Virus record (IMG/VR): IMGVR_UViG_3300050016_000156
Location: 1-64,000 of that record
Origin: a virus
Reading direction: 5' to 3' (one strand)
Length of the DNA: 64,000 nucleotides
Position numbers and translations under genes: made by a program. The notes beneath the pieces are model-generated. The model was not told the origin of the DNA and did no database searches. It was given only the letters and a program-made list of their open reading frames with translations. Below, one piece after another: positions 1-42,910 of this stretch (the first letter of the stretch is position 1; each line of letters begins with the position of its first letter).

Positions 1-1215
1 GTCCCATTCCTGTTTAACAGGAGTCGCGGCTGCCACGCCCACATTCGCGAATCGAATGCGAACGATAGCGGCTTTGCCCAAAGAAGTCCACACCACCGTG
101 CCGTCAGTAGTGGCTGCGCCCTTCGTGGTGTTGAACTTGCTGAACCCGATAAAGGTTGCGGCGGTCGTTCCACCTGTCGTAGCTACGAACAAGTAGCCGT
201 TCAACACCATATACGAAGCGGGAGTGAATCCTGCCGCAACAATCGTCGACGTTCCGGGGTAAACCGGCGAAATACAATCAATCCCGTCAACCACAATTCC
301 AGCAGTCTCGGTGGTGCCGTCAGGTCGAGCAAATTTGACAGACTTTTGAACCTTCCACTGTGATCCGGTGTTCGCCACGACTGCGACGAAATCCGCCGTG
401 CTACCGGCAGGAATCAGCGGCAAAGGGTTCTGAAGTCCAGGTACGAACGGTGCAACCGGCGCTGACACGTTAGAGGTGTTCGAAATCGTAACCGCACCGT
501 TACCCGCGCCTACTGCAAGCGCACGACCGGCCAAAGTCATGAGAGAAATGCTGTTCAGTGTGATGGATGTGTTGGCAAGAATGTTTCCAGACCAAACGTG
601 GTTGTGCGCATCAAAAGTAACCGAACTTCCAGAAAGCCAATAAACATTGTCGGCTTTAGCGCCATTAATCAGGGCAATCGTGGTTGCGGCGGTAGTTACG
701 TTCAACGCCGAGGGAACCTGAAAAACGAACATAGGATTTACGAGGCCAGCGCCATCCAATGTGACCGTGCCGCCCGAGAAAAGCAGCGTACTCGTAGCCG
801 CACCAACGAAACCAGGGCCTCCGTTGAATCCTGTAGGCGTAGCGGTGAAGGTGGTCGTCCCAAAAGACGCGGCGATAGGGGTTGAAGTCAGCCCGTTCAA
901 AAAGGTGTATGCGGCCAATCCGGCTATGCGTGCTGCCGCAGCATCCGCGTTGTCGATCCCGTACGGGGGAACAACTACGCCTGGAGGAAAGCCCACAATC
1001 GACATGGTCGGCGCGGAGCCGATGTTTCCGCCATTAATTACGGAGTTGCCTGTGTTGGTGATCCCGGCGTACGCCAAAAGTGAGTAGTTACCCGCCGAGC
1101 CCAGTTGCGGGTTCGACGAACCGGGGATAGTCCCAAAATCAGAGGCAAGAATTTCAAAATACGCGCCGGGTGCCACAGACCCGCGAAACGAACTTGTATA
1201 CCCTTTGCTTGACAT
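1..1215 (-). CDS. virion protein with ice-binding (DUF3494) fold, 3' end beyond window
   Basis: The reading frame is open from an ATG at 1215 to the left edge (405 codons, no stop), so the C-terminus lies outside the window. Residues about 45-250 show the order of motifs typical of the DUF3494/ice-binding beta-solenoid family: DAAAARIAGLAAYTFLNG, then LDGAGLVNPMFVFQV, INGAKADNVYWLSGSSV, SGNILANTSITLNS and GRALA. Residues after 255 are Gly/Thr/Val-rich, and GYLFVATTGGTT resembles segments found in phage tail and fibre proteins. A late promoter lies at 1270-1298 and a terminator at 1302-1345 separates it from the upstream gene, so it is a late single-gene unit. I infer a surface-exposed virion adhesin. 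Binding of ice itself is not shown, because DUF3494 also occurs in adhesins. Confidence 0.85.
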   Translation of the reverse strand, partial: MSSKGYTSSFRGSVAPGAYFEILASDFGTIPGSSNPQLGSAGNYSLLAYAGITNTGNSVINGGNIGSAPTMSIVGFPPGVVVPPYGIDNADAAAARIAGLAAYTFLNGLTSTPIAASFGTTTFTATPTGFNGGPGFVGAATSTLLFSGGTVTLDGAGLVNPMFVFQVPSALNVTTAATTIALINGAKADNVYWLSGSSVTFDAHNHVWSGNILANTSITLNSISLMTLAGRALAVGAGNGAVTISNTSNVSAPVAPFVPGLQNPLPLIPAGSTADFVAVVANTGSQWKVQKSVKFARPDGTTETAGIVVDGIDCISPVYPGTSTIVAAGFTPASYMVLNGYLFVATTGGTTAATFIGFSKFNTTKGAATTDGTVVWTSLGKAAIVRIRFANVGVAAATPVKQEWD

Positions 1216-1269
1216 GATATTTTCCTTTTACCATCGGGAACCGATGGGACGCCCACAAATGTTAGGCAT

Positions 1270-1298
1270 CTCTACTTATGGATTGATAAGTCAGTTTT
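1270..1298 (-). promoter_or_regulatory. phage late promoter P1
   Basis: The minus strand reads AAAACTGACT, 8 nt, then CATAAGTAGAG. This is one of ten copies with invariant 8-nt spacing. It lies 55 nt upstream of the DUF3494 virion protein. Confidence 0.8.
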
Positions 1299-1369: not shown

Positions 1370-2086
1370 TTAAAACTTGTCGTTTTCCGTTGCCTTGTGG
1401 CGCGGGAACTCCATCACGAAGGAAAAAGTTGATCCGCCGCCGAGGGCTCCTGTCCGATAGCAAGTTCCGTTCGGGCCGTTGCCGCCGGTGATACCATATG
1501 TTCCGTCGCACCGAGGATTCGACTGAGTTAGCACGTGCCCCCCATCGAAGCTGAATGAGAGACGAGTACAAACCGCCCCGAGACAGCCGAAGCGAGCCGT
1601 GACTCCCAGTTCTACACCCTTCAAATGCGCTGACTCTAAACCGCTGGGGGTAATCCCATTATTGAACTGACTGACGTATTTGATGGAGACCCTGGTTGGC
1701 AAACCGCCGATGTATCCTCGGTGAATAAAACCGCCCGAAGCGAAGTCGCCGTCTTTGGTGACCTTCGTAACATCATACATCGAGTCGGCGACTGAGCCCG
1801 TCAGACCCCAGTTCTGGCTCAGCCAGATAATGCCGCCCGCTGTGGTGATATTCGCGCGTCCGCCGCCGAGCGCAACGTGAGTTTCAATCGGCGAAAATGT
1901 GTCTTTCAAATCCAGTTCAAAATGTTTGGCGAAAGGAACTTCGACCGCCGCCATAACCCCAACCGATTTGTTGTCATAATCCAGCGCGCCTTCGGGTCCC
2001 AGTAGCCATCGGGTTTGAGCGTGCGTGGTTGGCGTGAATGCCAGGAAAGACAGAAGCACAAACAGGAACGAAAGAAATCTGCTCAT
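1370..2086 (-). CDS. secreted, outer-membrane barrel-like protein
   Basis: 238 residues. The start at 2086 is chosen because GGAGGA stands just upstream and the N-terminus is a clean Sec signal peptide (MSRFLSFLFVLLSFLAFTPT, cleavage near THA-Q). The mature part has alternating hydrophobic and Gly/aromatic stretches and ends in Phe, as outer-membrane beta-barrels do. Four Cys near the C-terminus (GCLGAVC and two later) could form disulfides. The gene has its own sigma70 promoter (2106-2134) and terminator (1302-1345), the layout of a moron gene expressed independently of the virion genes. Changing the host surface, for example superinfection exclusion, is an inference. I do not recognise a specific family. 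Confidence 0.7.
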   Translation of the reverse strand: MSRFLSFLFVLLSFLAFTPTTHAQTRWLLGPEGALDYDNKSVGVMAAVEVPFAKHFELDLKDTFSPIETHVALGGGRANITTAGGIIWLSQNWGLTGSVADSMYDVTKVTKDGDFASGGFIHRGYIGGLPTRVSIKYVSQFNNGITPSGLESAHLKGVELGVTARFGCLGAVCTRLSFSFDGGHVLTQSNPRCDGTYGITGGNGPNGTCYRTGALGGGSTFSFVMEFPRHKATENDKF

Positions 2087-2657: not shown

Positions 2658-2686
2658 TTCTACCTATGGAATGATTAGTCAGTTTT
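2658..2686 (-). promoter_or_regulatory. phage late promoter P2
   Basis: AAAACTGACT, 8 nt, CATAGGTAGAAG on the minus strand. It overlaps the last codons of the GIY-YIG gene and lies 34 nt upstream of the gene starting at 2624. Confidence 0.8.
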
Positions 2687-3269
2687 CCGTAAGAAGTTGT
2701 AAGGAGTTTGCTCGTTTAGCCGCTTCGCGAGCAAAGGCGGCGCGGGACATTTTTGCGCGAGTTTCGAGGGATTTTGGCTCCGTATGCTTTCCGAGATGAG
2801 CGACCCTCATCTTCGCTTTGGCTTCAGGGGAATGAAAATGCCCGAGGTGGCCCGTATATCCACGCAATCGCGCCACCATCTTCTCTCGAATTTGCTCGCT
2901 AAACCTACGACCCCGATTTTGTGTGTGTCCTTTGTGGGAATCACTCATGCGGCGACGAGTTTCATCAGACGGCTTAGCCATCCCTTCCCCGCCCGCCGTC
3001 AGATTATATCCGCAGCTTGGGTCTTGAGTATTAAACAAAGCAATCAGAAACCGCTCATACGCATCGGTTGTTTTTCGGTCACCCGATTGCGAAACTAGCA
3101 CACGCCATGTAAAAGCAGCGGCCCCATATTTCCGCAAAGCAGAATAAAAACGACTTCGCCGCCCACCCCGAGCGTTTTTCTCGTGCTGCAGCCGCCGCTG
3201 TTCTAAAAGTTTGCTGGTTTGACCAACATAACTTTTAAAAGTATAGCTGTTTGTGGCAAGATAAATCAT
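2679..3269 (-). CDS. GIY-YIG homing endonuclease with NUMOD3 repeats
   Basis: 196 residues. The N-terminal GIY-YIG nuclease core is visible in divergent form: IYLATN..SYVGQTS, the helix RLQHEKNARGG, and Glu in TDAYERFLIALFN, followed by CGYNLTAGGEG. The C-terminal half holds NUMOD3-type DNA-binding repeats (SDETRRRMSDSHKGH, SPEAKAKMRVAHLGKH, SLETRAKMSRAAFA). A sigma70 promoter ends 6 nt before the ATG, so a leaderless mRNA is predicted. The 3' end runs over late promoter P2 of the next gene, a typical free-standing insertion between two genes. Confidence 0.9.
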   Translation of the reverse strand: MIYLATNSYTFKSYVGQTSKLLEQRRLQHEKNARGGRRSRFYSALRKYGAAAFTWRVLVSQSGDRKTTDAYERFLIALFNTQDPSCGYNLTAGGEGMAKPSDETRRRMSDSHKGHTQNRGRRFSEQIREKMVARLRGYTGHLGHFHSPEAKAKMRVAHLGKHTEPKSLETRAKMSRAAFAREAAKRANSLQLLTEN

Positions 3270-25697: not shown

Positions 25698-28600
25698 TTA
25701 TTTTTTCTTGAGACCTTTGCCGAGCCCCTTCTGCATCGCTTCCTGTTTCGCCTTCATCATTTCCGCAACCTTCGCGGTGTTCTCGGCGTGGACATCCTTG
25801 ACGTTCGCACCGAAGTTGAAGTCGGTGGAACCTAGCTCTTCTTCTGGTACTTCTCGGGGAGTTCCGACTCCAGTTCCCCGTCCAGTTCCGCTGGCGGGTT
25901 CCCCAGAAACTCCAGCCGCAAATAGTTTTCCCTGGTCAGCGGGAGCCCCAGTTCCTGCAGCATTTTCTCGGTTCCATTCAGTTGCGTAGTCCCAGATTCT
26001 GTTTCGGGCTTGGTCGGCTGTGATTTTGCCATCTGAGTGTTCCTTCCAAATTGCGTCTATCGCTTGCTGGTTCTCGGGCGTCTTAAAATCATCGGTAAAT
26101 ACGTCCCGAATCTTGGTCCACGTAGGCGATTGTAGCCTACTTGGGATGGGAATGTCAAGTTCTTTCGCGGCTAGTCGGTAAGCCGCGTCGTGGAGAGCGT
26201 ACGTTCCCTTGAGTCCATACTCACCGTTCTTAATGTTGCCGAAGTTGTCCCGAACGGCGGGGATCTTTCCTGACATCGGGCGCAACTGTGCCACGTTGAT
26301 GGCGTGCGTGTCCATCGTTAGGTAGCGCGGGTCATCTGGCGACAACATGTTGTTGTAGAAATTCCGAACCTTGTGCCCGTACCCGAGGTTCTTGCTGATG
26401 TTTTCGGGCGACCCATCTTTCAAAATTTCAATCGCTTTCTGAATGTGAGACTGGAAACTCCAACCGACGTTGCGCGGCGACCCATCTTGATTGAGCGCAA
26501 GACCGTTCGATGTGCCGTCAGGATTCCATGTCTGGTACTCGCGAGGATTGTGACCCTCGTCGTACAGGCGCAACCAAATTGCCTGCTGTTCGGTTGTCGG
26601 CAGTTCGGCTAGCGTCTTTCCTTGGACCTTTTTGATGAGCGGTTTGAATGAACTGTTGGCAGGCAGAGACGTAATATTATCCGCCGCGTCCTGCATCTCG
26701 GGCGTGAACTTCGTGGCTTGCTGATTCTTCCAGATATTCGCGGTGCGCTCAGCGAGCGAGGTATTCTGGTCCCAATCCGTCATCGGCGATTCCACGGCGG
26801 TCACGCCTGCAATCTGGTGCGGAGTAAAGCCATGCTGTGCGGCAACCGCCTGCACGCGCTCGTGCGCGCCGACTGGATACCACTTCTCGTCGCGTTTAAT
26901 GGCATCAGGCAACATCTTGCTCATTACAAATTTGATGTTGTCCGCCGCATGCCGAATGTATGCATTGGCGTGCGCCAGCGCGTCGCCCTCGGGCGGTGTG
27001 AATCCTGGCGTCGTATTCGTTCGGTTCACCATCTTTTGCAGATACCCTGGCGCGGCCTTCGCGGCGTCCATATCCGAAGTCATATCCCGCTGAGTGTGGT
27101 CTTCAACGACTTCGCCCTTGACCTTCTTCGTGGGCACACGAGTGCTGACGGTTGGAATGTCTTTCGACGCTGCAGGCGCGGCCCCAGCCGCAGGCGCTTC
27201 AGGAGTGCCGCCCGTCGAGGGCTTGAATACTGCAGCCTGTTGAGCCGCCGCAGCCGTTGCTTTATCCGCGGCTTTCTGTTCTTTCGCGGACAATTTCGGA
27301 GCAGGCCCTTCGCCTGTGCCGCCTGTCTGAATTTCTCCCTCACCGCCGAGATGATATATGGCTTTCTGATTTGCGTCTTTGCCTGCAGCAACCGCTTCAG
27401 CGCGGTCGGCATAGGTCTTGCTGACATCCAACACCGCTTTTCCTGTGTCGGGGTCTTTCCATGTGCCGACAGCGTGGTCACCCTTCTCCAATACATCGGC
27501 GTTATCTGCTTTGAACTTCGCCAGAACTTCGGGCGTGAGCTTGTCGACTTGGACGGTGCGCTCAGGATATGCGCCAACCGAATATAAATCTTTTCCTGCC
27601 AGATTTTCTCCCGCAGGCGTGAAGGTCGAGCCGCCGCCTTCTTCATGAGCGGACAGTTGATCGTCTTCAGGCGTCTTAATCTTTTCTTTCGAGACTATGC
27701 CTTTTTTAGCTTCGGCAGGCGAAGTTCCAGTTGCTTGCGCACTTCCGCCTTCTCCTCGGGCGACATTGCCTTCACGTCCTGTAAGACCTTCTCCGCTAAC
27801 TGCTCGGTTGTCAGGTTGTTCTTGTCCTGTGGCATTTGCTATTCTCCTCTGTGCTTCTTGATGCATTGATGTCAATCGGTCGGGGCTAGCGTGAAACTGG
27901 CGAGAGAGTCCTGCTTCACGGAAGCCTGCGTTCTCATTTATGATACCTGAAACAGCGGGATGTTGCAAGTACTCTTTCCCTGCATCAATTGCCTTATGCA
28001 TGTACTCCATCGCGTCTTCGTGACTGACTCCCGCCGCCTGCAGAATCTGGTATGCGCGCGACCCATCCCCGCCAGTTCCGAGAAAGAAATTATGATTGGC
28101 GCTCCGAGGCAAATCATTGAAAACCTCATCTGCCGCGATACCGCCCATCAGGGTTTTCACAATTGGGGCCACTTTATCTGGGCGGACCTGCCCTGCGGGG
28201 TTAAAGAGTATGTTTTCTCGCCCAGGCCACCGTACCGCGGCGCGCGCGTCTTTCCCCAGATCGGGATGACTCGAACTGAGCATGCCCCCCGTAACGAGAC
28301 CTTCGTTTTGTCCAACCATTGCGTGCCCGAGTTCATGACGAATAGTGTGAATTTCAGGGCGGCCCGCCGATGCTGGCATCTTCGCCAGTTTGCCTGTCGG
28401 CACAGAGTACTCTGTCGACGGCTCGCGCTCACCCATCTTTTCGATGCGCCACGAGTAAGCCCGCGTGCCTGGGAATTTTTTCTGGGCAACCGCAATTGCG
28501 TTCTTCGATGAGAAAGCCTCGATGGGCTCCATGTGAGTGGTGCCATCAGCATCCGTAATTTCAACGGTGTACTTTTCTTTCAGAGGCGACTGCAGTTCCT

Positions 28601-30470
28601 TGGAGAGAAGGTCTTGTTGGTCAGGATGCGCGCCAATTTGTTTCAGCATAGGTTCGATGTCGGTGTCGGTCGCTAATTCCTTGTACGGGGCCGTCTTGAT
28701 GTCCCGAGGATTGTCAGCGGTCTCCATCATCACATTGCCGTAGCCCAACCCCTTGGCGACTCCCTGTTTGAGAGCATCAATTTGCTCGGGGCTGATACCC
28801 TCACGAGGCACGGAAATATGCAATGTCGTTCCACCTTTATCGGTAGTGGGCCGAACACGAACGGCCTTCGAGTCGTTGATGAACGCCACACGGTTGTCGG
28901 GGGCTTCCCGAGTCGGGCCTTTCGAGCCCTGCGCCCAATCAATCGCCATATCGTGGTGGGTGCTGCCGAGCGGAATAAACTTCCCGTCAGGCGCAATGAA
29001 AGAAGGACCGTCCGCAATCTTCGTTGGGTCGGTATGAGTTCCAAACTTGTCCGCAATCTTCTGCAGGTCGGGATGATATGCGACAGCGGGTGCTGGGGGC
29101 TCAGGAGTCTTCCCTACAAACTTCCCGCCTACGGATGCGAAGGCTTCTGGGTCCACATGACCGGGACCGGGAAGCACTGCAGAAATCGACCCCTCATCCT
29201 CGCCGATGTTTTTATAATATGCTCCGGCGGCTTCCGACTGTCCTTTTATTTTTGCACCGATGCGGTTTGCGCCTACATCCGTCAGAGGACGGGCAGGAGT
29301 ATTTCGCATCGGACCTGTTATCTTCACAGGCATGACGTTGGGTTTTGCGTCTGTTGCGACGGGAGTTTTGTCAGAATACACCGCCTTTCCGATAGTCGGA
29401 TAGTGGTCTTCTTCGGGCACATCAACATTATACCCCGTTACATTATTTCCTGTCGGGTCGAGTTTCGCCAAAGTTTTCTTGCCTGCTAAAAGGGTTTTTC
29501 CGTACTCCTGCGTACCATCCCATGGTTGTCCATCCGCTCGAATTCCGATGCGCGCCTCAAGGGCTTGAGTTGCAGCCCTCTGCGTACCGACGTGGAGACC
29601 CTGCTCGCCGCCCCGCAAATCCCCGCTGGGTGTTCCATGATAGAGTTGTTGCGGAACAGACCCGACTTTCTTGCCGCCGAGTTTGGCGAACCCTGCTTCG
29701 AGACTGCCCTCGGGTGCTTTCGCTTCGAGTGCGGCCTTGCCTTCTTCCTTGGCGCTGGCAACGGCAGTCTGCGCCAAATCTTTCAAGTGTGTCCCAACTT
29801 TTGATGCGACTTCACCCGCACCTTTGCCCGCATGCGTGGCCGCTTCAAGAGCCATGAATGAATCCACACCCATGTGCGTCAAGATGCGCTGAGTATCAGC
29901 AAAAGCATCCGCCCGTTGTTCGGGAGTCGTGGCAGCCTTACCTTTTTCAATAGACGCTTTCAATTCAGGGTACTGGTCGTAAACACCTTTGCCCATCTGC
30001 AGTGCAAACAGCCCCTCCGCCACTTTCTGAATAAGAGCGGGAGTCTCACCGAGCCCGGCAGTCGCCGCAACCGTGCCGATGGTGCCGGGCGATGTCAGAC
30101 CACCAGCAGATTCCAACGCCCCCGTCAGGACAGGAGCCTGTTTTTGCTCAGCGGGCGTCAGCGCCTCTTCAGGCGACAGAAATTGCTCACGCCCATACTT
30201 TGGATTTTCCACTGTCCGAGATGAGTATCGGGGAATGCCTTCCGTGACAATCTTCTTAGCCTTCTGAACAACCGACGGTTCCGGGGCAGCCTCGATAGTT
30301 GGGCCGGACGGATTCAAATTAGTTTTGAGAAAAGGCGCACGGGTATCCTTAGCCGGATCGTACTCAGGATTCAGGTCTATTGGGATGGCCTGAGACGCAG
30401 TCGGGTCCGTGATCGGAATAGAATCCGGCACAGGCGTTGGGGTCGGCGTAACTGGGGTCTCGTTGGCCAC
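25698..30470 (-). CDS. giant polyvalent protein: ART-like, HExxH peptidase-like and DUF7178-like domains
   Basis: 1590 residues. In order: Pro/Thr-rich N-terminus; an ADP-ribosyltransferase-like segment at about 275 (LYHGTPSGDL...GLHVGTQRAATQA); mixed alpha/beta regions; a Zn peptidase motif HELGHAM at about 711; linkers rich in Ala, Gly and Pro (about 930-1130); a domain at about 1170-1400 with GVTAVESPMTDWDQN and LTMDTHAINVAQL resembling phage DUF7178; a Lys-rich C-terminus. This modular build is typical of polyvalent proteins injected with phage DNA. Domain names are my reading of motifs; the enzyme activities are inferred. It is adjacent to the small partner gene at 30475. Confidence 0.75.
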   Translation of the reverse strand: MANETPVTPTPTPVPDSIPITDPTASQAIPIDLNPEYDPAKDTRAPFLKTNLNPSGPTIEAAPEPSVVQKAKKIVTEGIPRYSSRTVENPKYGREQFLSPEEALTPAEQKQAPVLTGALESAGGLTSPGTIGTVAATAGLGETPALIQKVAEGLFALQMGKGVYDQYPELKASIEKGKAATTPEQRADAFADTQRILTHMGVDSFMALEAATHAGKGAGEVASKVGTHLKDLAQTAVASAKEEGKAALEAKAPEGSLEAGFAKLGGKKVGSVPQQLYHGTPSGDLRGGEQGLHVGTQRAATQALEARIGIRADGQPWDGTQEYGKTLLAGKKTLAKLDPTGNNVTGYNVDVPEEDHYPTIGKAVYSDKTPVATDAKPNVMPVKITGPMRNTPARPLTDVGANRIGAKIKGQSEAAGAYYKNIGEDEGSISAVLPGPGHVDPEAFASVGGKFVGKTPEPPAPAVAYHPDLQKIADKFGTHTDPTKIADGPSFIAPDGKFIPLGSTHHDMAIDWAQGSKGPTREAPDNRVAFINDSKAVRVRPTTDKGGTTLHISVPREGISPEQIDALKQGVAKGLGYGNVMMETADNPRDIKTAPYKELATDTDIEPMLKQIGAHPDQQDLLSKELQSPLKEKYTVEITDADGTTHMEPIEAFSSKNAIAVAQKKFPGTRAYSWRIEKMGEREPSTEYSVPTGKLAKMPASAGRPEIHTIRHELGHAMVGQNEGLVTGGMLSSSHPDLGKDARAAVRWPGRENILFNPAGQVRPDKVAPIVKTLMGGIAADEVFNDLPRSANHNFFLGTGGDGSRAYQILQAAGVSHEDAMEYMHKAIDAGKEYLQHPAVSGIINENAGFREAGLSRQFHASPDRLTSMHQEAQRRIANATGQEQPDNRAVSGEGLTGREGNVARGEGGSAQATGTSPAEAKKGIVSKEKIKTPEDDQLSAHEEGGGSTFTPAGENLAGKDLYSVGAYPERTVQVDKLTPEVLAKFKADNADVLEKGDHAVGTWKDPDTGKAVLDVSKTYADRAEAVAAGKDANQKAIYHLGGEGEIQTGGTGEGPAPKLSAKEQKAADKATAAAAQQAAVFKPSTGGTPEAPAAGAAPAASKDIPTVSTRVPTKKVKGEVVEDHTQRDMTSDMDAAKAAPGYLQKMVNRTNTTPGFTPPEGDALAHANAYIRHAADNIKFVMSKMLPDAIKRDEKWYPVGAHERVQAVAAQHGFTPHQIAGVTAVESPMTDWDQNTSLAERTANIWKNQQATKFTPEMQDAADNITSLPANSSFKPLIKKVQGKTLAELPTTEQQAIWLRLYDEGHNPREYQTWNPDGTSNGLALNQDGSPRNVGWSFQSHIQKAIEILKDGSPENISKNLGYGHKVRNFYNNMLSPDDPRYLTMDTHAINVAQLRPMSGKIPAVRDNFGNIKNGEYGLKGTYALHDAAYRLAAKELDIPIPSRLQSPTWTKIRDVFTDDFKTPENQQAIDAIWKEHSDGKITADQARNRIWDYATEWNRENAAGTGAPADQGKLFAAGVSGEPASGTGRGTGVGTPREVPEEELGSTDFNFGANVKDVHAENTAKVAEMMKAKQEAMQKGLGKGLKKK
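25832..26032 (-). CDS. nested gene in another frame of the giant protein
   Basis: 66 residues that look like a real protein (EKMLQELGLPLTRENYLRLE, NPPAELDGELESELPEKYQ). GGAAGG stands about 9 nt before the ATG, and a sigma70 promoter lies at 26129-26158. It is fully inside the C-terminal coding part of the 1590-aa gene, where that frame is low-complexity. Similar small proteins with LTRENYxxLxxxGxPPxELxxE patterns occur in other phages, from memory. Confidence 0.6.
   Translation of the reverse strand: MAKSQPTKPETESGTTQLNGTEKMLQELGLPLTRENYLRLEFLGNPPAELDGELESELPEKYQKKS
26129..26158 (-). promoter_or_regulatory. internal sigma70 promoter for the nested gene
   Basis: TTGACA (26158-26153), 18 nt, TACAAT (26134-26129), about 95 nt upstream of the nested ATG at 26032 and inside the giant gene. 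Confidence 0.6.
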
Positions 30471-31704: not shown

Positions 31705-32322
31705 CTATGAAACCCCCTTATCCGAGTCGGTTTGGCCGAGCAGTACCTGAAAGGATATCTCACCTTTCGGATTCATGTACGCGCCAATGATGCCCCCAGG
31801 CAAGCAAGCGTCTTTCACGTCATGCAGTCCCATGACACATTTGATGACGGAGTTATGCAGGAAGATGGCAGTCGGAAGTTGTTCGTACGGTGTTGCGAGA
31901 TACTGAAACACGACCTGGACGCGGTCGTTCAGTTGGTCATGGCTTTCGCCGCCAGGAATCACAAGGGAAGTGTCTTCGAGATACTTTTTGAATTCGGCAA
32001 TCATCTCGGGCGTCTTCTCTTTTCCCGTAAAATCAGCAACCATCCACGGCCGCAAGTTCGGGTCGCAACCCATGAACGGGCACTGAACTGCGCCCGTATC
32101 CATCAGGTATTGTGCGGTATGGATTGTGCGCGGAACGTCTGAGGAAATTACGCGACCGATGCGCTCAAAAGATAGCCAGCGCGCCGCGGCTGCGGCCTGC
32201 TCACGCCCTTTTTCGGAAAGTTCCATTCCAGACCAGCCATCCCATACCGACATATCGGTAAGTTCACCGTGGCGGCACAAAAAGCCGATTAATTCAAGCG
32301 ATGGGTCCATGTTAAAAAACAT
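31705..32322 (-). CDS. histidine phosphatase family protein
   Basis: 205 residues, GAGGA upstream. LCRHGE at 16-20 gives the RHG catalytic His; VISSDVPRTIHTAQYL, PGGESHDQLNDRV and FLHNSVIKCVMG supply the second Arg, Glu and His of the phosphoglycerate-mutase-like fold. Substrate unknown; possibly a nucleotide or sugar phosphatase. It follows tRNA-Thr directly. Confidence 0.85.
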   Translation of the reverse strand: MFFNMDPSLELIGFLCRHGELTDMSVWDGWSGMELSEKGREQAAAAARWLSFERIGRVISSDVPRTIHTAQYLMDTGAVQCPFMGCDPNLRPWMVADFTGKEKTPEMIAEFKKYLEDTSLVIPGGESHDQLNDRVQVVFQYLATPYEQLPTAIFLHNSVIKCVMGLHDVKDACLPGGIIGAYMNPKGEISFQVLLGQTDSDKGVS

Positions 32323-32338
32323 TCTATCCTCAATCTGG

Positions 32339-32409
32339 AGCCCAATCGACGAATCGAACGCCAGTCTGCTGAGTACAGGTCAGCCGTCCTACCACTGAAC
32401 GAATCGGGC
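32339..32409 (-). tRNA. tRNA-Thr (TGT)
   Basis: All four arms fold: acceptor GCCCGAT/ATTGGGC (with wobbles), D stem GTTC/GGAC, anticodon stem GCTGA/TCAGC, T stem TGGCG/CGTCG, discriminator T and encoded CCA (32336-32338). The 7-nt loop CCTGTAC gives anticodon TGT but has C instead of U at position 33. Confidence 0.85.
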
Positions 32410-32499
32410 AATCTGTTTCCATCCGCACTTGCAAACGAAACCAGTCTCACGTTTTTGCGAGTCTCGTTGAATCGTTTCTTTACAGCGATGGCACCGCAT
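32389..32499 (-). CDS. 36-aa Zn-ribbon peptide
   Basis: MRCHRCKETIQ...GFVCKCGWKQ has C-x2-C and C-x-C. It starts 7 nt after a sigma70 -10 box (32507-32512), so a leaderless mRNA is expected; an alternative ATG at 32508 overlaps the -10 box. The 3' end overlaps the 5' part of tRNA-Thr. Could also be just the tRNA leader. Confidence 0.4.
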   Translation of the reverse strand: MRCHRCKETIQRDSQKRETGFVCKCGWKQIARFVQW

Positions 32500-32506
32500 G
32501 GAGTCC

Positions 32507-32536
32507 ATGATACCACCCAGACCTGCTCGCGGTCAA
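32507..32536 (-). promoter_or_regulatory. sigma70 promoter for tRNA-Thr and the phosphatase
   Basis: TTGACC (32536-32531), 18 nt, TATCAT (32512-32507). The -35 box lies 5 bases from the inverted-repeat element. Confidence 0.6.
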
Positions 32537-32540
32537 GCAC

Positions 32541-32725
32541 AATATTGGGGAATTATATAGATGACTCCCTTAGCGGCAAACGTGCTCCGCATAACGCTTT
32601 CGTCTCCACTTAGTAGGGCACTTAGCACAGTGCCTCCTCTAACCGTTGTCGGGCTGAAACGAGCCGCCGCAGTACACACGGCGGTTATCTTTTCAAGGGA
32701 GTCATCTATATAATTCCCCAATATT
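32541..32725. mobile_element. 185-bp element with perfect 31-bp inverted ends (MITE-like)
   Basis: Bases 32541-32571 and 32695-32725 are perfect reverse complements (AATATTGGGGAATTATATAG... outward). The 123-bp interior has two strong stems, GGCACT/AGTGCC and CCGCCG/CGGCGG. A single end also occurs at 18037-18064. The ends contain TATAAT facing outward, so this could equally be a divergent promoter pair or a structured RNA. No target duplication is visible. Confidence 0.55.
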
Positions 32726-32727
32726 GG

Positions 32728-32791
32728 AGCCGAGTGTTAGAGTTACGACCTCCGGCTTCATCCTTGCGCGCAAGGATTTATCCCACTCGGC
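32728..32791 (-). ncRNA. tRNA-like structure with encoded CCA
   Basis: GCCGAGT and ACTCGGC form a perfect 7-bp acceptor followed by T and CCA, as in the true tRNAs next door. The body is only 49 nt: no D arm, a palindromic ATCCTTGC/GCAAGGAT arm without a 7-nt anticodon loop, and a poor T arm. A decayed tRNA or a tRNA mimic. Confidence 0.45.
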
Positions 32792-32848
32792 ACAAATCTG
32801 GGCCGCAAACTCCTGCCTTAACGTGGCGGCCATACGTTTGCAAAATGG

Positions 32849-32922
32849 TTGGCGGGGATGGACTCGAACCACCGACCTGACGGTTATCGACCGACTGCTC
32901 TAACCAACTGAGCTACCCGCCA
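32849..32922 (-). tRNA. tRNA-Ile (GAT)
   Basis: Acceptor TGGCGGG/CCCGCCA, D stem GCTC/GAGC, T arm GGTGG-TTCGAGT-CCATC, discriminator A and encoded CCA (32846-32848). The loop TCGATAA gives anticodon GAT with C at position 33, and the anticodon stem has one T-T mismatch. Confidence 0.8.
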
Positions 32923-33151
32923 TCTGATAATGGACTGCGCGACAGCCCAGGCTCGTGATTTCAGCAACCTTGTTCATGCCGCCGCGCGCCAGTCAGGTGT
33001 TTCCACGTTTTGCCGAGGGTATCAATTTTGAGCAAACAACTCAGGCTCTTGATTCTCGGCAATCTTGATTACGAGACGGCGGCTGCGGTCATAGGCTTTC
33101 GCCAACCATTCCGCACTTCGAGGGGCTGAGTACCCACGCTCGTAAATTTGG
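32923..33151. other. spacer between tRNA genes
   Basis: Several 24-40 codon frames on the minus strand look partly protein-like but lack starts with ribosome-binding sites. I see no supported gene. Confidence 0.5.
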
Positions 33152-33223
33152 TGGACATGGAGGGATTTGAACCCCCGACTTCCTGCTTGCAAAGCAGGCA
33201 CTCTCCCGCTGAGTTACACGCCC
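33152..33223 (-). tRNA. tRNA-Ala (TGC)
   Basis: Acceptor GGGCGTG/CATGTCC with wobbles, anticodon stem CCTGC/GCAGG, loop TTTGCAA (anticodon TGC, normal U33), T loop TTCAAAT, discriminator A and encoded CCA (33149-33151). Confidence 0.93.
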
Positions 33224-35311: not shown

Positions 35312-36307
35312 CTAGACGGCACTCACCTCGCCTCTGATCCGTCTGAAACCTGGGGTGTTGTTGGTATTTGGGCGTGCCACGACCCCAAGGAACCAGTCGT
35401 AGCTCACGATTGCGCGTGTCTGTAACATCGGGTTGCTGAGGTCGATGTCGTTATCGCCGAAGGTCTTGACGTTAACCTTGAAGCTGGGGTTCCGAGGTGC
35501 GCGGACGCCCAACAGTTCAGATGCCATCATCGCTTCGCGGCCAACGACGTACGTCGCATAGCCCGTCTTGCCGACCGAAGGATAGTTCGAGTAGGTCGGA
35601 GTCGTCTGGGTGCGGAGGATGCGAACGCCCGACCATTCAAGGACGGTGTATCCGCGAGTCATATCCGACTTCAGAACGGCTGCGCCAGCTTCGCTGCGCT
35701 TCAGCGTGTCGACGGCAGACCCTGCGCTGTTGTCCGACATGAAGTCGTACACAACGTACGGGTGCATTGCCGAGGTGTACATTCCGCCATCGCGGCCAGG
35801 AACTGCGTTGCCCATCAACTGGGATTCGCACTTCCGAATCGTGTTGGACAGCATGTACTCGTTGTCGAGCAGGTCGATGCGGGCCGAGGCCTGCGCCGTT
35901 GCGGCAGCTTCGAAGCCGTTAATCGCAATCAGGTTGCTCGTGAGAGCGCCCCGATACGAGAGGTTGCGGCTGGCATCCAGAGTGATGTCGGCCAAGAACA
36001 TCGCCTGCGCGACGTTTGAAACGCCCAGCCAGTCGCCGTATTCATCAGCGAACGCTGCGCTGAACACTTGGTTCAACTGGAGCGACGGCCCAGGAACGCC
36101 TTCAGACAGGTCGTAGGTCGCGGCAGCGAACGGAGTTTGTCCATAGAACTGGATAGTTCGCCCTGAACGGCGGGGCAGAGGACGGAAGTCACACAGTTCC
36201 TCCAAAAAGGGCGTGTTGAATTGCCACTCCATAATTGCCATTCGGTCGTAAGCGATTTGTGGGAAGCCCGCCAAAGTGGTGGACTGTACCCCGGGAGGGA
36301 GGATCAA
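35312..36307 (-). CDS. major capsid protein, N4-gp56 family
   Basis: 331 residues, TTG start with AGGAG at 7 nt. PLPRRSGRTIQFYGQTPFAA, then TYDLSEGVPGPSLQL and a YGDWLGVSN stretch follow the N4-gp56 group of HK97-fold capsid proteins. Preceded by late promoter P4 and the scaffold gene and followed by small structural genes, the classic capsid order. Confidence 0.85.
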   Translation of the reverse strand: MILPPGVQSTTLAGFPQIAYDRMAIMEWQFNTPFLEELCDFRPLPRRSGRTIQFYGQTPFAAATYDLSEGVPGPSLQLNQVFSAAFADEYGDWLGVSNVAQAMFLADITLDASRNLSYRGALTSNLIAINGFEAAATAQASARIDLLDNEYMLSNTIRKCESQLMGNAVPGRDGGMYTSAMHPYVVYDFMSDNSAGSAVDTLKRSEAGAAVLKSDMTRGYTVLEWSGVRILRTQTTPTYSNYPSVGKTGYATYVVGREAMMASELLGVRAPRNPSFKVNVKTFGDNDIDLSNPMLQTRAIVSYDWFLGVVARPNTNNTPGFRRIRGEVSAV

Positions 36308-36370: not shown

Positions 36371-36397
36371 ATCTACTTATGGATTGATTAGTCAAAA
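36371..36397 (-). promoter_or_regulatory. phage late promoter P4 for the capsid gene
   Basis: TTTTTGACT, 8 nt, CATAAGTAGAT on the minus strand, about 65 nt upstream of the capsid start. Confidence 0.8.
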
Positions 36398-36476: not shown

Positions 36477-37607
36477 TTATCGAATTGCGCTACCGCGATG
36501 TGATTCCAAAAATACTTGATTAGGGTCTTTTCCTTGCGCTACTTGTTCAGCATGATATGCTGCAAGAATCTCTTCAGGCGTAGCATTCGCAGGAATAACC
36601 GCTTTTGCGGCGACAACTGCGGGCGACACAACTGGCGCGCCGCTCGTACCAGAACTTTGGCCGAACAATGAAGACGACATCGAGCGTGCTTTTTCGACTA
36701 CCGCAGCCGCCGAAGCCGCGCGCGCCGTAGCAATTGCTTGCGCAGCAGCCGCATCCGCAGCAGCCGCATCCGCAGCAGCCTTTGCAGCACCAGCATTCGC
36801 ATCGGGCGCGGCAGCCGCAACTACAGCATCGCCTTCGGGAAAATACAGGCCAGCTTTCTGCATTTCAGCATACGCCTTTTGAATCGCTTCGACTTTATTG
36901 GGAGCGTCCAAAAGGTCCATGGCCTGAATTTGAAGTTGCAAGATTTGGAAATTGCGATCCCCGCCAGCCCACGATGGAGTCACTCGTTGAAATTCTTCGC
37001 CCGCGTCTTTCCATGACTGTTCGAGTTTCTTACCGATGCTTTCTTCGGTGCGCTCTTTCAGCGCCTCGATAGAGACGCCCTGAGATTCGAGATAGGCTTT
37101 GACAGCCCCTGACTGCGTGATGTAGTCAGCCGCAGAGATTTCATTCAGTCTGAACTTGCGTTCCAGTTCTGCCTTGGCAGCAACTTCGGCCGCCTGGGCT
37201 GCGGCAACAGCCGCGGCATCAGGAACAACTTCCTGCGCGGGGGCGTTCGCCTTCAAGGTGTATGCGACCTTCAGGGCATTCAATTCCTGACGGTCCAGTT
37301 CGGCCTCGGTGTTGGCTTCAAAATGAAATTCCTGTCCGCCGATTACGGAAGTCCGCTTAAAGATTTCGGGCTCAGCCTGAGCAGCCGCCAATACCGCGGC
37401 ATCGGCCGCAGCTTTATCAGTCGCCGCCTGCGTAGCCACTGCCTGCGCGGCGTCGAGTTGATTCTTTTCCGCCATCTGCTTCTCGGCTTCCGCAATCAGC
37501 AGGACACGAATGTCCGTGGCGGAAAGCGCCTTCGAAACAGCGTCAGAAAGTTCAGCGGTCATCTTCACATCGGGAAGAACTTGGATTTCAGGATTTTCAG
37601 TGCCCAT
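36477..37607 (-). CDS. scaffolding protein
   Basis: 376 residues, extremely Ala-rich and helical (a long run of DAAAA repeats near 275-300), acidic in the first half, with a basic C-terminus. This composition and the place between portal and capsid genes are typical of internal scaffold proteins. A stem-loop GGGGACG/CGTCCCC lies just beyond its stop (36421-36440). Confidence 0.8.
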   Translation of the reverse strand: MGTENPEIQVLPDVKMTAELSDAVSKALSATDIRVLLIAEAEKQMAEKNQLDAAQAVATQAATDKAAADAAVLAAAQAEPEIFKRTSVIGGQEFHFEANTEAELDRQELNALKVAYTLKANAPAQEVVPDAAAVAAAQAAEVAAKAELERKFRLNEISAADYITQSGAVKAYLESQGVSIEALKERTEESIGKKLEQSWKDAGEEFQRVTPSWAGGDRNFQILQLQIQAMDLLDAPNKVEAIQKAYAEMQKAGLYFPEGDAVVAAAAPDANAGAAKAAADAAAADAAAAQAIATARAASAAAVVEKARSMSSSLFGQSSGTSGAPVVSPAVVAAKAVIPANATPEEILAAYHAEQVAQGKDPNQVFLESHRGSAIR

Positions 37608-37639: not shown

Positions 37640-37668
37640 ATCTACCTATGGAATGATTAGTCAGTTTT
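37640..37668 (-). promoter_or_regulatory. phage late promoter P5 for the scaffold gene
   Basis: AAAACTGACT, 8 nt, CATAGGTAGAT on the minus strand. Its first 25 bases are identical to those of P2. Confidence 0.8.
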
Positions 37669-37681
37669 CCGTAATAAGATG

Positions 37682-38071
37682 TCAGGAGTTTGCGGGGGCG
37701 TAACTGCCCGCCGCACGATTGTCGGATTCCATTTCTTCGAACTTGGTCAGGACGGCCTGACGCACATAATCGCCCTGCTCAAGAACTTCGGCAATCGTTT
37801 TACTGTGGAGGTCTGGGCTCGCGGCCTGCGCGCGAACGCCTGCCTCAATGGCGTCTTTGATTGTGCCGAACAGGAGTTCGTGATGTTCTTTCGCGGCTTG
37901 GGCGCGCGCTTTCAGAACCATCAACTGTTGCAAGTCCCAGCCAGGATACTCTATGGCGGTGGCGGTAAGGTTTTTTACAAGGTCTTGAGATATTTCCCAG
38001 AGGTCAGGAAAGCCCTGATTCGCCTGCAGACCCATTAGCCTATTAGCTCGCTCGATTGTAGGTGTGCTCAT
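37682..38071 (-). CDS. hypothetical structural-module protein
   Basis: 129 residues, helical, soluble (MVLKARAQAAKEHHELLFGT). GGAG upstream. Lies between portal and scaffold, a place often used by a capsid assembly or protease cofactor. No family recognised. Confidence 0.6.
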   Translation of the reverse strand: MSTPTIERANRLMGLQANQGFPDLWEISQDLVKNLTATAIEYPGWDLQQLMVLKARAQAAKEHHELLFGTIKDAIEAGVRAQAASPDLHSKTIAEVLEQGDYVRQAVLTKFEEMESDNRAAGSYAPANS

Positions 38072-38657
38072 TTACTTGCTCCGTTTTCTTTTTGCCGTTC
38101 TGATTTCCCATCATTTTAGTGGATACAGATGGCATTTTGATTCCTTTGTTCCAAGCCGAGTATTTTTTAGTGGCGCGCCACTGTTTAACCGCAAGACCGA
38201 TGTTCACCGCGTGTTCGGAAGATTTCGGTTTATTCTTCGCTGCCGCAGATTGTTTGGCGCGAGTCTCGAACGAAGCGCACTTACCTTTATGTGCCTCTGC
38301 CATCCGTGCTCGGGCTGCTAGCGAGCGCTTCATCCCGAGATTGATTTTATTTCCTAACTTTGCTTGAGATTGTTTTGCTCTTGTACTGGCCGTGGGATTA
38401 GACCCGCCTTCGCCGCCATCACTAGTATTATGCAGGCATCCACTTCCTAAATCTTTTCGTCCAAACAACCAAATTAGGGATCGCTCGGATTCAAATGCAT
38501 CTGCTTCTGAATCCTGCGGAAAAATAAAAATGCGCGAGCGATCTTTTGGTGCCCAATGGCCTTTGCATCTCTGGTATGCGCGATTTCCAGAACCTTTTCC
38601 AACATACCATGGGGTGTCTTCAGTTGCTCGCAACCAAAGATATGAATAGAAGGTCAT
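38043..38657 (-). CDS. GIY-YIG homing endonuclease with NUMOD3 repeats
   Basis: 204 residues. FYSYLWL...PWYVGKGSGNRAY is the GIY-YIG core, with SERSLIWLFGRKDLGSG...NTSDGGEGGSN after it. NUMOD3-type repeats (TRAKQSQAKLGNKINLGMK, KTAKQ-type helices, NKGIKMPSVSTKM) fill the C-terminus. The promoter ends 6 nt before the ATG. The 3' end overlaps the next start by 29 bases. Confidence 0.9.
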   Translation of the reverse strand: MTFYSYLWLRATEDTPWYVGKGSGNRAYQRCKGHWAPKDRSRIFIFPQDSEADAFESERSLIWLFGRKDLGSGCLHNTSDGGEGGSNPTASTRAKQSQAKLGNKINLGMKRSLAARARMAEAHKGKCASFETRAKQSAAAKNKPKSSEHAVNIGLAVKQWRATKKYSAWNKGIKMPSVSTKMMGNQNGKKKTEQVNEHTYNRAS

Positions 38658-38663
38658 CGTTCA

Positions 38664-38692
38664 ATTATACCGATACGAAAGGACCGAGTCAA
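38664..38692 (-). promoter_or_regulatory. sigma70 promoter, leaderless, for GIY-YIG gene
   Basis: TTGACT (38692-38687), 17 nt, perfect TATAAT (38669-38664), 6 nt to the ATG at 38657. Confidence 0.8.
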
Positions 38693-40926
38693 CCCCCAAA
38701 AGAGCTTTTATCCATGTTTGCGAACGCGCCCTTGGCTGCACGGTCAAGTCCCTGTTCTTGGGGCGTCGCCGCGAACGCTTTCTCGCGGGCTTGCAGGTCA
38801 ACATCGTTTGCGTGCTCCGAAGCCGCGCCGTGCTCGTTGAGGGTGTGCTTGCCTGTTTCAATCAACATGCGGTTTTCGGCCTGATTGTCGTCGATGTTCT
38901 TCTTGACTTCACCTTGAGCCTGAATGGCTCCGATTTTACCTTGCGCCATCGCGGCCTTCGTGTTCGCAGCCAGCCGCGCCTTGTCGTCATCGTTCATCGG
39001 GACGATAATCTTTTCCTTGTACGGAACGCCATAGGTATCAAACAGCGCCGAGAACATGGCATTATAGTCGATTTTTAGCGCTTGCACTGCTAGGTTTTCA
39101 ACGGTTCCTGGGGATTGGAGGAAGGTTTCAAGAATACCCATGTACTTGTTCAGAGCCTCACGAGCCGCCAACTTCGACCCAGCGGAGATATCGACTTTGT
39201 ATGTGCCGTTCAACATGTTCAAAGGTGTCGCAACGTGCGCTTCGCCGAGTGTTTCGGACAATAGCATCCGAATTTGCGACGGTTTTAGTTTTTGGTTCTG
39301 TCCGATGCAGAATTCTAGGAACGGAACGAAGACCTGTTCGGAAATTACGTCAATCAAGTCCTGCAACTTGACGGATTCACCGCCCGTGACCGCCGCCACG
39401 CCGCCAGGAGTCCGCATTGCGCCTGACGAGCCTGGATTTCCGCCCAATGTGCTCGGGCCTGCGCCTGTAATCGACGATGCCCACTCTTTCATCTGCGCAA
39501 TAACGGCCAGCGGCTCTTGAGCGTTGACGGCATTGCGTGTAAGCGGCTCCATCTTGTTTGGGCCGTCCGATTTGAAGATTTTTCCAGGGAATATCCACTG
39601 GGCCTGCGCAGAGTTGTTCGTTCCCGCGGGTGCGGTGTATGTTCCCATCAAATTCAAGTTCATGTCGTCCAAAAAGGCGTTGATGACGCCCTGACAGACT
39701 CGTTGGAAGTCCGTCAGCCAATAAGCGATGCCATATCCGTGCGCGGAGTCAGGCGCATTACGGAAACAGAAGCCCAGGAACGGCGGACGCTTGAAATTGT
39801 GTGTTTCATTCAGCAAGCAGTACTGTTTTCCAAGAATAATACAGTGTCTGTCGGCAGTCCAGTAGTCGAACGCTTCGAATTTGCGCATCAGCGGATCGTG
39901 CGCCGTTCGTTCGGTATAATTTTCGGGATACGCCTTCTGTGGCGTCGTCGTTTGTTGAAAAATCGGGTTGCCGGTATTCGATCCAAGCGTTTCAAGTGGA
40001 TTTGTTGGGGCTTGCGCCTGCATTTGTGGTGTCGTCAAGGCAACAATCTGCTCACGAGTAGGAATATTCCAACCTTCGGTATTGCGCAGAGCATCCAAAT
40101 CATACCCCGTGACATAAATGATGCGTCCTGCCCACTCAGCGACGCGAGGGTCGCCGCGGCGAAGGTCGGGGGCGTAACGGAAGCGCCGAATCGGCACATG
40201 TTCGAATACAGGCTCGTTGATTTCACAGACGCCGATGGTTTTTTCGATGATATTGTCTTCGTCCAGAGCAGGAATCGTGACAGCAATGCCGTTGATGACG
40301 ACCGTTTTCGGGTGCGTCGCTTGAACTTTCTTGAGTATATTCTTTTTGATTGTCTTCCAGCCGTAGATGGCCACGCCGAAGCCATAGAACAGCCCGTCGT
40401 ACGTGACTTCCCGCATTTCAGTCTTGGCAGAGACGCCCTTGTAGCCGCAAGTCTTCAATTGTGCATTGAGAATTGCCTGTTCGGCCTCGGCGCACTCAAT
40501 CGGAGTGCCTGAAGTCGGGTCAATCTTGAAAACTTGGTATCCACCGAACAGCGTCTGGTTGACGACGCTATGAATGCTGTAAAATTGTTCTGCAACGAGC
40601 GGCACGCCAAGGTTCGAGCGGAACAGTTCAGAGCCCTTCCACTTGATAGGGTCGACCCACGCGCGCAACATCAGTTCAGCGATGTTCCAACGACCAATCA
40701 AACCCCGAGTTGCTATGAATTGTTCTGATTCCTCACGGTTTAAATTTGCCTCTTTCATGAGGCTTAAGTCACTACGTAATTGGTCAGCAAAAGCGACTTC
40801 GGTTGGCCCAATTGGTAGAGCCGTTTCACCATAAGATACTGCACCCGGCAGTTCTAGCAGGCTGATCTGTCCGCGGTCAGAAAAATGACTGGTTGCTGTA
40901 ATTCGAGTTGTCGTATCTTCAGACAT
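38689..40926 (-). CDS. portal protein
   Basis: 745 residues. Position between terminase and scaffold, length, and segments such as HGYGIAYWLTDFQRVCQGVI, NAFLDDMNLNLMGTYTAP and the acidic/Ala-rich C-terminal helices match portal proteins of N4- and T7-like podoviruses. It forms the dodecameric DNA gate. Late promoter P6 lies directly upstream. Confidence 0.8.
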   Translation of the reverse strand: MSEDTTTRITATSHFSDRGQISLLELPGAVSYGETALPIGPTEVAFADQLRSDLSLMKEANLNREESEQFIATRGLIGRWNIAELMLRAWVDPIKWKGSELFRSNLGVPLVAEQFYSIHSVVNQTLFGGYQVFKIDPTSGTPIECAEAEQAILNAQLKTCGYKGVSAKTEMREVTYDGLFYGFGVAIYGWKTIKKNILKKVQATHPKTVVINGIAVTIPALDEDNIIEKTIGVCEINEPVFEHVPIRRFRYAPDLRRGDPRVAEWAGRIIYVTGYDLDALRNTEGWNIPTREQIVALTTPQMQAQAPTNPLETLGSNTGNPIFQQTTTPQKAYPENYTERTAHDPLMRKFEAFDYWTADRHCIILGKQYCLLNETHNFKRPPFLGFCFRNAPDSAHGYGIAYWLTDFQRVCQGVINAFLDDMNLNLMGTYTAPAGTNNSAQAQWIFPGKIFKSDGPNKMEPLTRNAVNAQEPLAVIAQMKEWASSITGAGPSTLGGNPGSSGAMRTPGGVAAVTGGESVKLQDLIDVISEQVFVPFLEFCIGQNQKLKPSQIRMLLSETLGEAHVATPLNMLNGTYKVDISAGSKLAAREALNKYMGILETFLQSPGTVENLAVQALKIDYNAMFSALFDTYGVPYKEKIIVPMNDDDKARLAANTKAAMAQGKIGAIQAQGEVKKNIDDNQAENRMLIETGKHTLNEHGAASEHANDVDLQAREKAFAATPQEQGLDRAAKGAFANMDKSSFGG

Positions 40927-40975: not shown

Positions 40976-42910
40976 CTACTTCCAAGAGTTATACGGGTCA
41001 CTTGGGTCGAAAGTCCCAGGTAGTCGATTCTCTTCATCGCCCGCAGGCTGACTGGCGTTCAGTTTCCGTAGCCAGTTCCCGATAGAGGGGTCCGCAGGGG
41101 GGTTTTCGAACTGGTATCCAGTCGGAACCGTCACTACCATGCCCGCCGTATCGGCAAAATCGTCGTGGCGGCCCAACTTCGGCCACTTGATGAGTTGCTG
41201 GACGAGTTGGTCATAGCCTTTCATAGGCGCGAAGAACCAAAGTCGACGCTGGTCGAGCGGTCCCTTGACGGTTCCGATGCGAATCAGCTTCGCGTTCGGG
41301 GCCTGCGAGCCCTTCACCCACTCAATCGGCACTTTCAGCAGCCCGCGCGCGGAGCAATACGCTGTAATGACGTTGTTGTAGGCTTCCCAACCATTGAACT
41401 TTTCCAAATAAACCGTATTCGGACGTTCGACCGCGACCAAGTTGTAGATATTCTCAGCTATTTGCGCCGAGTCCCACGTTCCAAACTCGCATCGGTAGAT
41501 AAAAATCTGCCCTCGAAAAATTCTGCAGACAAACAAGACAGAGTAGTCGCGCCCTTCTTGGCCGACGTACGCCAAATCTCCGACGACGATAGTCGGACCT
41601 GCCATATACGGCGGGATTTGCATAACGGTATGCAGTGTTTGACGGCCGATGATGGTCTCAGTGAACGTCTGCGTACCCGTTGCAATGGGTTGGTTCTCGT
41701 ACTGGTTGGCGAAGAATTCGGGCGTGATACGAATTCGTTCGCCTTCGAGAAATTGAAGGGTGTGCCCAATCGAACGACCGTCATGCGTACGAGTCTGCGG
41801 AAACAATACGTCTTTATTTCCACGGTCCTTGTAGCCTGGACATTTGCAGTCCGCAACCGTGCATGGCGGCTGCAGAATGTTCACATCGTAGTCGTGATAC
41901 ACATTGGTGTGCGTGCAGTTCTGGCAGCCGTGGCTCCAGCAGTCTCGAATCGAGAAGCGCCAGATCGTCCGCCCCATCTCTTTCATTTCGCGCTGGGCGT
42001 CTTCTTGAATGCGCTCGTATGTGTCGCCGAAGGAGTAGCGCGTTCCTGTCACAATCATGAAGCCTGGCGGCTCCAACAAAGGGCAGACGCCGAGGTAATC
42101 TTGGTAGCACTTCTCCAATGCGTCGACTTTGCGGTAGTTCGTTTCGTTCACCAAGTCGTCGATGTAGATGAGGTCAAAGTGGGACCCAGCTTTAACAGAC
42201 TTCGCCGTGGATATCGCGAATGTCGGCTCGGGGAAGATGTCACTCGTCCTACACGGGACGGTGAATTCGTGCGCGGTTCCGAGTTTAGCGGGCTGTGTCT
42301 CCCATGCTCGGGGATTCGGCGAGCCATCTTCGAGTGTTTCCAGTACTCGACGATTGCGCACATCCCGCAAACAAAATTCAGGAAAGAGCCACGAGAAGAG
42401 TTTGGTCGGTTTTTCGAAGAACTGTTTGATGACAGCGAGTTGGCGCTTGGCGAGTTTGTCGCCGCCCGTTAAAAACAGGATGCGGACGTTCGGATAATTC
42501 AAAATCGTCTGGATGATGTCGACCCTGACTGCCGACGTTTTGAACAAACCGCGGGACCAGAGAATCATTCTCTTTTTAGTGACCTGTTCTAAATCCGAGA
42601 GAACGAAGCCTTCGCCTGGGCGCTTCTGGATGAATTGATTGAACAGCAGCCGATGCGGGTTCTCTTGGAAGTTCATTCCGAGAATCGGCAAATATTTGAC
42701 GGGGACGCCTGGGTCGGCGGCAGCGTCGGGAGGGGTGATGAACCCCGCCAAGTAGAGGGGGTCTTGCAGACAGCGGTATCGCATCTCAAACCATTCGGTT
42801 CGTTCTGTATGCGACGCACCGTCATACCATTTGAGGAATGAACGAGGAAAGTTCGTCAGGTCGACGGACTTGCGGTAGTTTTCAAAAAGAGTTGGGTCTA
42901 TATCGAACAT
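40976..42910 (-). CDS. terL: terminase large subunit with Cys-rich insertion
   Basis: 644 residues. ATPase: MILWSRGLFKTSAVRVD (variant Walker A), VRILFLTGGDK, LIYIDDLVNE (Walker B with catalytic Glu), FMIVTGTRYSFGD (coupling motif). Nuclease: VVGDLAYVGQEGRDYSVLFV, TVYLEKFNG and HDDFADTAGMV supply the acidic residues. Between them at about 320-370 lies an extra Cys/His segment (CWSHGCQNCTHTNVYH...CTVADCKCPG) that looks like two Zn knuckles, not usual in TerL. Confidence 0.92.
   Translation of the reverse strand: MFDIDPTLFENYRKSVDLTNFPRSFLKWYDGASHTERTEWFEMRYRCLQDPLYLAGFITPPDAAADPGVPVKYLPILGMNFQENPHRLLFNQFIQKRPGEGFVLSDLEQVTKKRMILWSRGLFKTSAVRVDIIQTILNYPNVRILFLTGGDKLAKRQLAVIKQFFEKPTKLFSWLFPEFCLRDVRNRRVLETLEDGSPNPRAWETQPAKLGTAHEFTVPCRTSDIFPEPTFAISTAKSVKAGSHFDLIYIDDLVNETNYRKVDALEKCYQDYLGVCPLLEPPGFMIVTGTRYSFGDTYERIQEDAQREMKEMGRTIWRFSIRDCWSHGCQNCTHTNVYHDYDVNILQPPCTVADCKCPGYKDRGNKDVLFPQTRTHDGRSIGHTLQFLEGERIRITPEFFANQYENQPIATGTQTFTETIIGRQTLHTVMQIPPYMAGPTIVVGDLAYVGQEGRDYSVLFVCRIFRGQIFIYRCEFGTWDSAQIAENIYNLVAVERPNTVYLEKFNGWEAYNNVITAYCSARGLLKVPIEWVKGSQAPNAKLIRIGTVKGPLDQRRLWFFAPMKGYDQLVQQLIKWPKLGRHDDFADTAGMVVTVPTGYQFENPPADPSIGNWLRKLNASQPAGDEENRLPGTFDPSDPYNSWK

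Follow-up and report, generated by a model that had tools for sequence, protein, structure and literature searches.

Among the domains added on to phage particles, immunoglobulin (Ig)-like domains are the classic case. In T4 Hoc, a conserved C-terminal anchor carries variable Ig-like display domains, with long and short paralogues per genome (PMC10385173), and in tail sheaths extra domains are inserted away from the tube-contacting core, for which adhesion or stability has been proposed (PMC9230969). The ice-binding domain PF11999 (DUF3494) has been reported on three Arctic viral contigs, where it was taken from annotation as a means of host cryoprotection, and Synechococcus phage S-SKS1 was named among the sources of homologues (PMC11515562). 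A literature search for DUF3494 together with phage found no paper, and tblastn with DUF3494 queries against 50,697 deposited phage records gave no match; as a positive control, one such query matched 32 plasmid records. Here we describe a DUF3494 domain in a putative virion protein of an SU10-like phage known from environmental DNA, encoded at one end of the window, the 64,000-nucleotide stretch analysed, whose position 1 is position 1 of a linear 64,521-bp IMG/VR record (Table 1).

The DUF3494 domain of the window protein

The gene is a minus-strand open reading frame that exits the contig end after 405 residues. Full-length homologues occur in viral contigs L002 and L003, and their C-terminal ends lie 4 residues past the last residue of the window protein, which is thus almost complete, and a third homologue is present in viral contig L006. 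The full-length homologues in these phage contigs rule out a contig-end artefact or host contamination.

Compared to the curated Pfam cut-off of 28.7 bits, PF11999.13 (Ice_binding, formerly DUF3494) matched residues 47-247 with 94.6 bits (E 8.6e-27), and a sequence search of the PDB returned DUF3494 ice-binding or antifreeze proteins only (6eio, 7bwx, 7bwy, and 6bg8). In an AlphaFold model built on 24 sequences, which supersedes an earlier one on only 4 sequences (mean pLDDT 43.7), residues 37-250 mostly reached pLDDT 84-95, with a weak stretch at about 111-140 (pLDDT 53-62). The modelled domain consists of serial short strands and a single long helix (residues 92-107), the arrangement of a discontinuous beta-solenoid. 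All 31 Foldseek matches in the PDB at E ≤ 0.001 were DUF3494 proteins, the best being 6eio (TM 0.78 by target length), and both the model and Foldseek give a beta-solenoid, not an immunoglobulin fold. Among predicted viral structures (BFVD), the sole significant fold matches were 3 DUF3494 proteins of the giant virus Hyperionvirus (A0A3G5A745, A0A3G5ACG7, and A0A3G5AEI1), and no phage protein was significant. A preliminary description had recognised this fold from motifs that we also found in the protein (NPMFVFQV, INGAKADNVYW, and GRALA), and its assignment is borne out by the profile score, the model and the fold matches. The PF11999 score, the PDB sequence matches and the Foldseek matches exclude a chance or misread motif.

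Table 1. Features of the window and of related contigs; positions refer to the window unless a contig is named
Feature	Position	Strand	Details
DUF3494-containing putative virion protein	1..1215	-	405 aa read; last ~4 codons and stop past contig end
Conserved C-terminal domain, proposed virion anchor	1..432	-	residues 262-405; 67-87% identical to relatives
Variable linker	433..465	-	residues 251-261; 9-27% identity to relatives
DUF3494/PF11999 beta-solenoid domain	466..1107	-	residues 37-250; Pfam match 47-247
N-terminal arm	1108..1215	-	residues 1-36, starts MSSKGYTSSFRGSVAPGAYFEI; 74% identical to L002
Leader stem-loop 2	1231..1247	-	CCATCGG UUC CCGAUGG
Leader stem-loop 1 of mRNA	1249..1269	-	
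Late-promoter-like repeat	1270..1297	-	sense strand ...GACTTATCAATCCATAAGTAGAG
237-aa protein	1370-2083	-	starts MSRFLSFLFVLLSFLAFTPTTHAQ, signal-peptide-like; no Pfam match; just upstream of DUF3494 gene
Small ORFs resembling GIY-YIG/HNH homing endonucleases by eye	2679-3269; 38043-38657; 50331-50786; 54271-54723		
1590-aa protein, possibly internal virion protein	25698-30470	-	DUF7178 stretch, 75 bits
Histidine phosphatase superfamily protein	31705-32322	-	PF00300, 80.3 bits; adjoins three tRNA genes (32336-33223)
Major head protein	35312..36307	-	phrog_1357, 53 bits; promoter motif at 36371
Probable scaffold	36477..37607	-	position only (flanked by portal and head protein); promoter motif at 37640
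SU10-type portal protein	38689..40926	-	PF23899, 58.5 bits; motif at 40934
Terminase large subunit	40976..42910	-	phrog_38, 119.9 bits
Chaperonin, phage-encoded	52685-54316	-	PF00118, 173.6 bits
Tandem paralogue without DUF3494	L002:5037-5585		
Tandem paralogue without DUF3494	L003:11252-11782		
Large proteins with signal-peptide-like start	L023:5035-7329; L017:8770-10245; L017:10562-12612; L033:9596-11053		

Flanking domains, paralogues, and expression signals

An N-terminal arm precedes the DUF3494 domain and a conserved C-terminal domain follows it, and these parts differ in conservation. Between the window protein and its L002 homologue, identity was 87% in the C-domain, 52% in DUF3494, and 27% in the linker; the ranges among the four phages were 67-87%, 49-67%, and 0-30%, respectively, and the DUF3494 domain of the window itself was 49-52% identical to its relatives. 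The order of divergence was the same, or tied with the C-domain ahead, in all pairs except those with L006, where the gap was small. The proposed anchor diverges more slowly than the DUF3494 domain it would display, for which relaxed constraint can be an alternative cause.

In both L002 and L003, an adjoining tandem paralogue consists of the C-domain and a similar short N-terminus, without DUF3494; compared by eye, the counterpart of the N-terminal arm in these paralogues reads MAGSxGYNxRAYVSNAPGAFxI. Residues 262-405 gave no match in Pfam, PHROGs or fibre families, nor in the PDB, and none to a known capsid- or tail-binding domain, and were modelled poorly (pLDDT 25-47). The role of the C-domain as a virion anchor is therefore one that we infer. 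This domain had previously been called a fibre-like region, a label that finds no support, as the domain matches no fibre family and also occurs without DUF3494; conserved anchor is the more fitting description. At the other end of the protein, the N-terminus (MSSKGYTSSFRGSVAPGAYFEI) contains no hydrophobic stretch by a simple hydrophobicity window, as distinct from a trained predictor, the best 12-residue mean being 1.09 at residue 14.

A 28-nt element, in the sense orientation near GACTnATCATTCCATAAGTAGAG, precedes the DUF3494 gene as well as the head protein, scaffold-position and portal genes. Its 22-mer form was present in five copies at ≤3 mismatches, compared to 0 in 100 shuffles, and eight looser copies were also seen, some of them ahead of the genes for capsid, scaffold and portal. 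Each of the four phages (window, L002, L003, and L006) has a recognisable version of the motif ahead of its DUF3494 gene, and L007 has one ahead of its large tail-type gene. Because it is common to structural genes, it supports late expression of the DUF3494 gene alongside them, in agreement with the phage late promoter noted earlier ahead of this gene. The mRNA leader upstream of the DUF3494 coding sequence forms two neighbouring stem-loops in each of the four phages, and in stem 2 all 7 pairs are kept, with compensatory changes at 4 of them; these stem-loops may act in transcript stabilisation or translation control.

The same phage also encodes a GH108-type lysozyme and RecA. Some of the small ORFs that resemble homing endonucleases adjoin structural genes.

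Occurrence and origin of phage DUF3494 domains

Scanning IMG/VR with five phage DUF3494 domains gave at least 21 loci, and PF11999 gave at least 24 matches, spread over 20 viral records and each exceeding the cut-off; both counts are lower bounds because the scan requires short conserved peptides. The tail region of L007 encodes a protein of 1696 aa, which we refer to as a large tail-type protein by gene position and length, and the domain is found close to its end. In the relative L012, the flanks can be aligned on both sides, but some 300 residues of different sequence fill the slot between them (residues ~1290-1600 in L012, from G003, and ~1315-1536 in L007). Occupied by unrelated domains in two related phages, this is a putative hypervariable display slot. 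A tail sheath protein of 1447 or more residues (L027:1-4341; phrog_2839, 85 bits) carries DUF3494 inserted at 295-485, and the DUF3494 protein of L036 matches tail-fibre families. The L027 contig encodes another DUF3494 protein, L055, and two DUF3494 domains were found in each of G001, G007, G013, and G019.

The layout with and without the domain was also observed in L017, L028, L032, and L033, where a 120-residue gene adjoins a 335-residue gene. Both ends are common to the two, and the 335-residue copy has DUF3494 inserted between them; in L017 a head-protein match lies upstream of the pair (phrog_9953, E 6.7e-6). Here an unrelated protein, in an unrelated phage group, has arrived at the architecture of the window protein. 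Together, the sheath, fibre, large tail-type and small proteins show DUF3494 to be a module that recurs in different phages and in different virion proteins, which the preliminary description had not noted.

A signal-peptide-like N-terminus was seen in the phage DUF3494 protein of L023/L041, which contradicts the proposal that phage DUF3494 proteins never carry one. Signal-peptide-like starts, such as MKSIGAVIRRVLVVLSTSILALSGVIAFAQ, also occur in large proteins near DUF3494 genes in phage contigs (Table 1), which is odd for virion proteins.

To place these domains, we compared 20 phage with 25 cellular DUF3494 domains, the latter from one bacterial phylum and four PDB proteins. Nineteen of the 20 phage domains formed one clade (100/100) apart from the sampled cellular domains, and given that cellular sample, a single origin of the phage clade is provisional. 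The twentieth (L037, G007:C1:70458-71009), carried by the G007 large tail-type protein, groups with cellular proteins, which suggests two acquisitions and subsequent spread among phages. The phage with this cellular-type domain also carries a phage-clade domain (L053). The DUF3494 domain of the window has a long branch and a floating position in wide trees, and in the phage-only tree it groups, still on a long branch, with L002 (93/81, not firm). This fits inheritance with fast divergence. We do not claim a domain swap in the window lineage, since the phage-only tree pairs it with L002 and accelerated divergence suffices for the long branch.

Proposed function and comparison with known systems

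We consider it likely that the window gene encodes a late virion protein whose anchor holds out an exchangeable DUF3494 display domain, most likely for accessory adhesion. The anchor, made up of the N-terminal arm and the C-domain, would join the particle in late assembly and present the solenoid outward. The domain would be exchangeable: phages have placed it in a tail sheath, in tail fibres, in a large tail protein and in small proteins of the head or neck region, at slots that may otherwise be empty or occupied by other domains. By analogy, the solenoid could bind the virion weakly to surface polysaccharide, either of the host or of the host's matrix, and would thereby concentrate particles near cells. 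The preliminary description had called the protein a late virion protein and had raised use of the fold as a surface adhesin or as a cold-adaptation factor. Gene context and architecture point to the virion; that the protein resides there, with DUF3494 facing outward and binding a surface, is what we infer.

The same slot may be empty or filled by an unrelated domain, so the exact fold is dispensable, and this agrees with a ligand-free DUF3494 that acts as a structural spacer or stabiliser, lengthening or stiffening a projection or cementing neighbouring subunits; stabilisation is among the roles suggested for extra domains of sheaths (PMC9230969). We regard this explanation as rather unlikely, since a distinct phage clade of the fold has been retained across many unrelated host proteins, which suggests selection for something specific to it. 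The fold and sequence are nearest to proven ice binders (6eio and 7bwx), and by eye the strands equivalent to their solvent face are rich in Thr, Ser, Ala, and Asn (SSVTF, TSITLN, and GAVTIS), much like 6eio. The domain might thus adsorb the particle to ice or inhibit recrystallisation around it, which we think unlikely, and the consequences drawn from it are equally doubtful, namely that virions are protected through freezing or held where hosts gather, such as ice or brine channels. Many ice-free settings harbour PF11999 proteins as well (PMC12337378), so that ice does not follow from the fold, and because DUF3494 ice-binding sites have no consensus motif (PMC7966756), an ice-binding face is not readable from sequence. 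A combination of the two ideas, in which the phage-specific ice-fold lineage is a general display module that still binds ice in some phages, whose virions attach to or are protected by ice, likewise seems improbable.

Host protection by a soluble ice-binding protein, encoded as an auxiliary metabolic gene, has been proposed from annotation for PF11999 genes in viral contigs (PMC11515562), and is in our view very improbable here. The window protein starts without a signal-peptide-like sequence, which many of the sampled bacterial proteins have, and a secreted protective protein is therefore unlikely. Furthermore, the gene is under a structural-gene promoter, DUF3494 is embedded elsewhere in sheath, fibre and large tail proteins, and the record of S-SKS1, the deposited phage named in that study, gave no PF11999 match even at E 10.

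Accessory adhesion by a displayed domain remains the reading we favour, and these results suggest a new exchangeable surface-display module of phage particles. A second fold, unrelated to Ig, would be used in the way Ig-like domains are, in sheath, fibre, large tail and small decoration-type proteins, with before-and-after pairs (with and without DUF3494) within one genome. The findings also call for caution where PF11999 on a viral contig is taken for a host cryoprotection gene, and they provide concrete proteins for asking what DUF3494 binds besides ice and whether virions bind ice.

Compared to the cellular DUF3494 ice-binding proteins (6eio, EfcIBP; 7bwx, AnpIBP), the window domain has the same solenoid-plus-helix fold, with 32-34% identity in the Foldseek alignments; unlike them, it has no secretion signal and is fused between phage-specific parts. 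As in the Arctic study (PMC11515562), PF11999 is found on viral contigs, but there it was interpreted as host cryoprotection genes and here as a domain of a particle protein. The SU10-type portal links the window phage to Kuravirus SU10, in which gp10, possibly an Ig-like protein of the head surface, is likewise encoded immediately ahead of the adaptor. Adaptor and nozzle genes fall beyond the end of the window's contig and were assessed in L007, whose adaptor-position protein scored 14.6 bits for the SU10-type adaptor, below the 27-bit cut-off. Profile comparison, based on shallow alignments, revealed no sequence relation to SU10 gp17, gp11, and gp10 for the large tail protein, the protein in the adaptor position and the C-domain, respectively. 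L027 is a sheath with an added domain of the kind described in PMC9230969, mostly Ig-like there and DUF3494 in L027. In architecture, the window family parallels T4 Hoc: both have a conserved C-terminal domain next to a faster-diverging displayed domain, and the proposed anchor also occurs without the displayed domain, in the short tandem paralogue of L002 and L003. Unlike Hoc, the displayed domain is a beta-solenoid instead of an Ig fold, and the anchor is a proposed one, put forward from sequence. By this analogy, the phage-specific DUF3494 is probably used as Ig-like domains are in Hoc and in tail sheaths, for surface adhesion.
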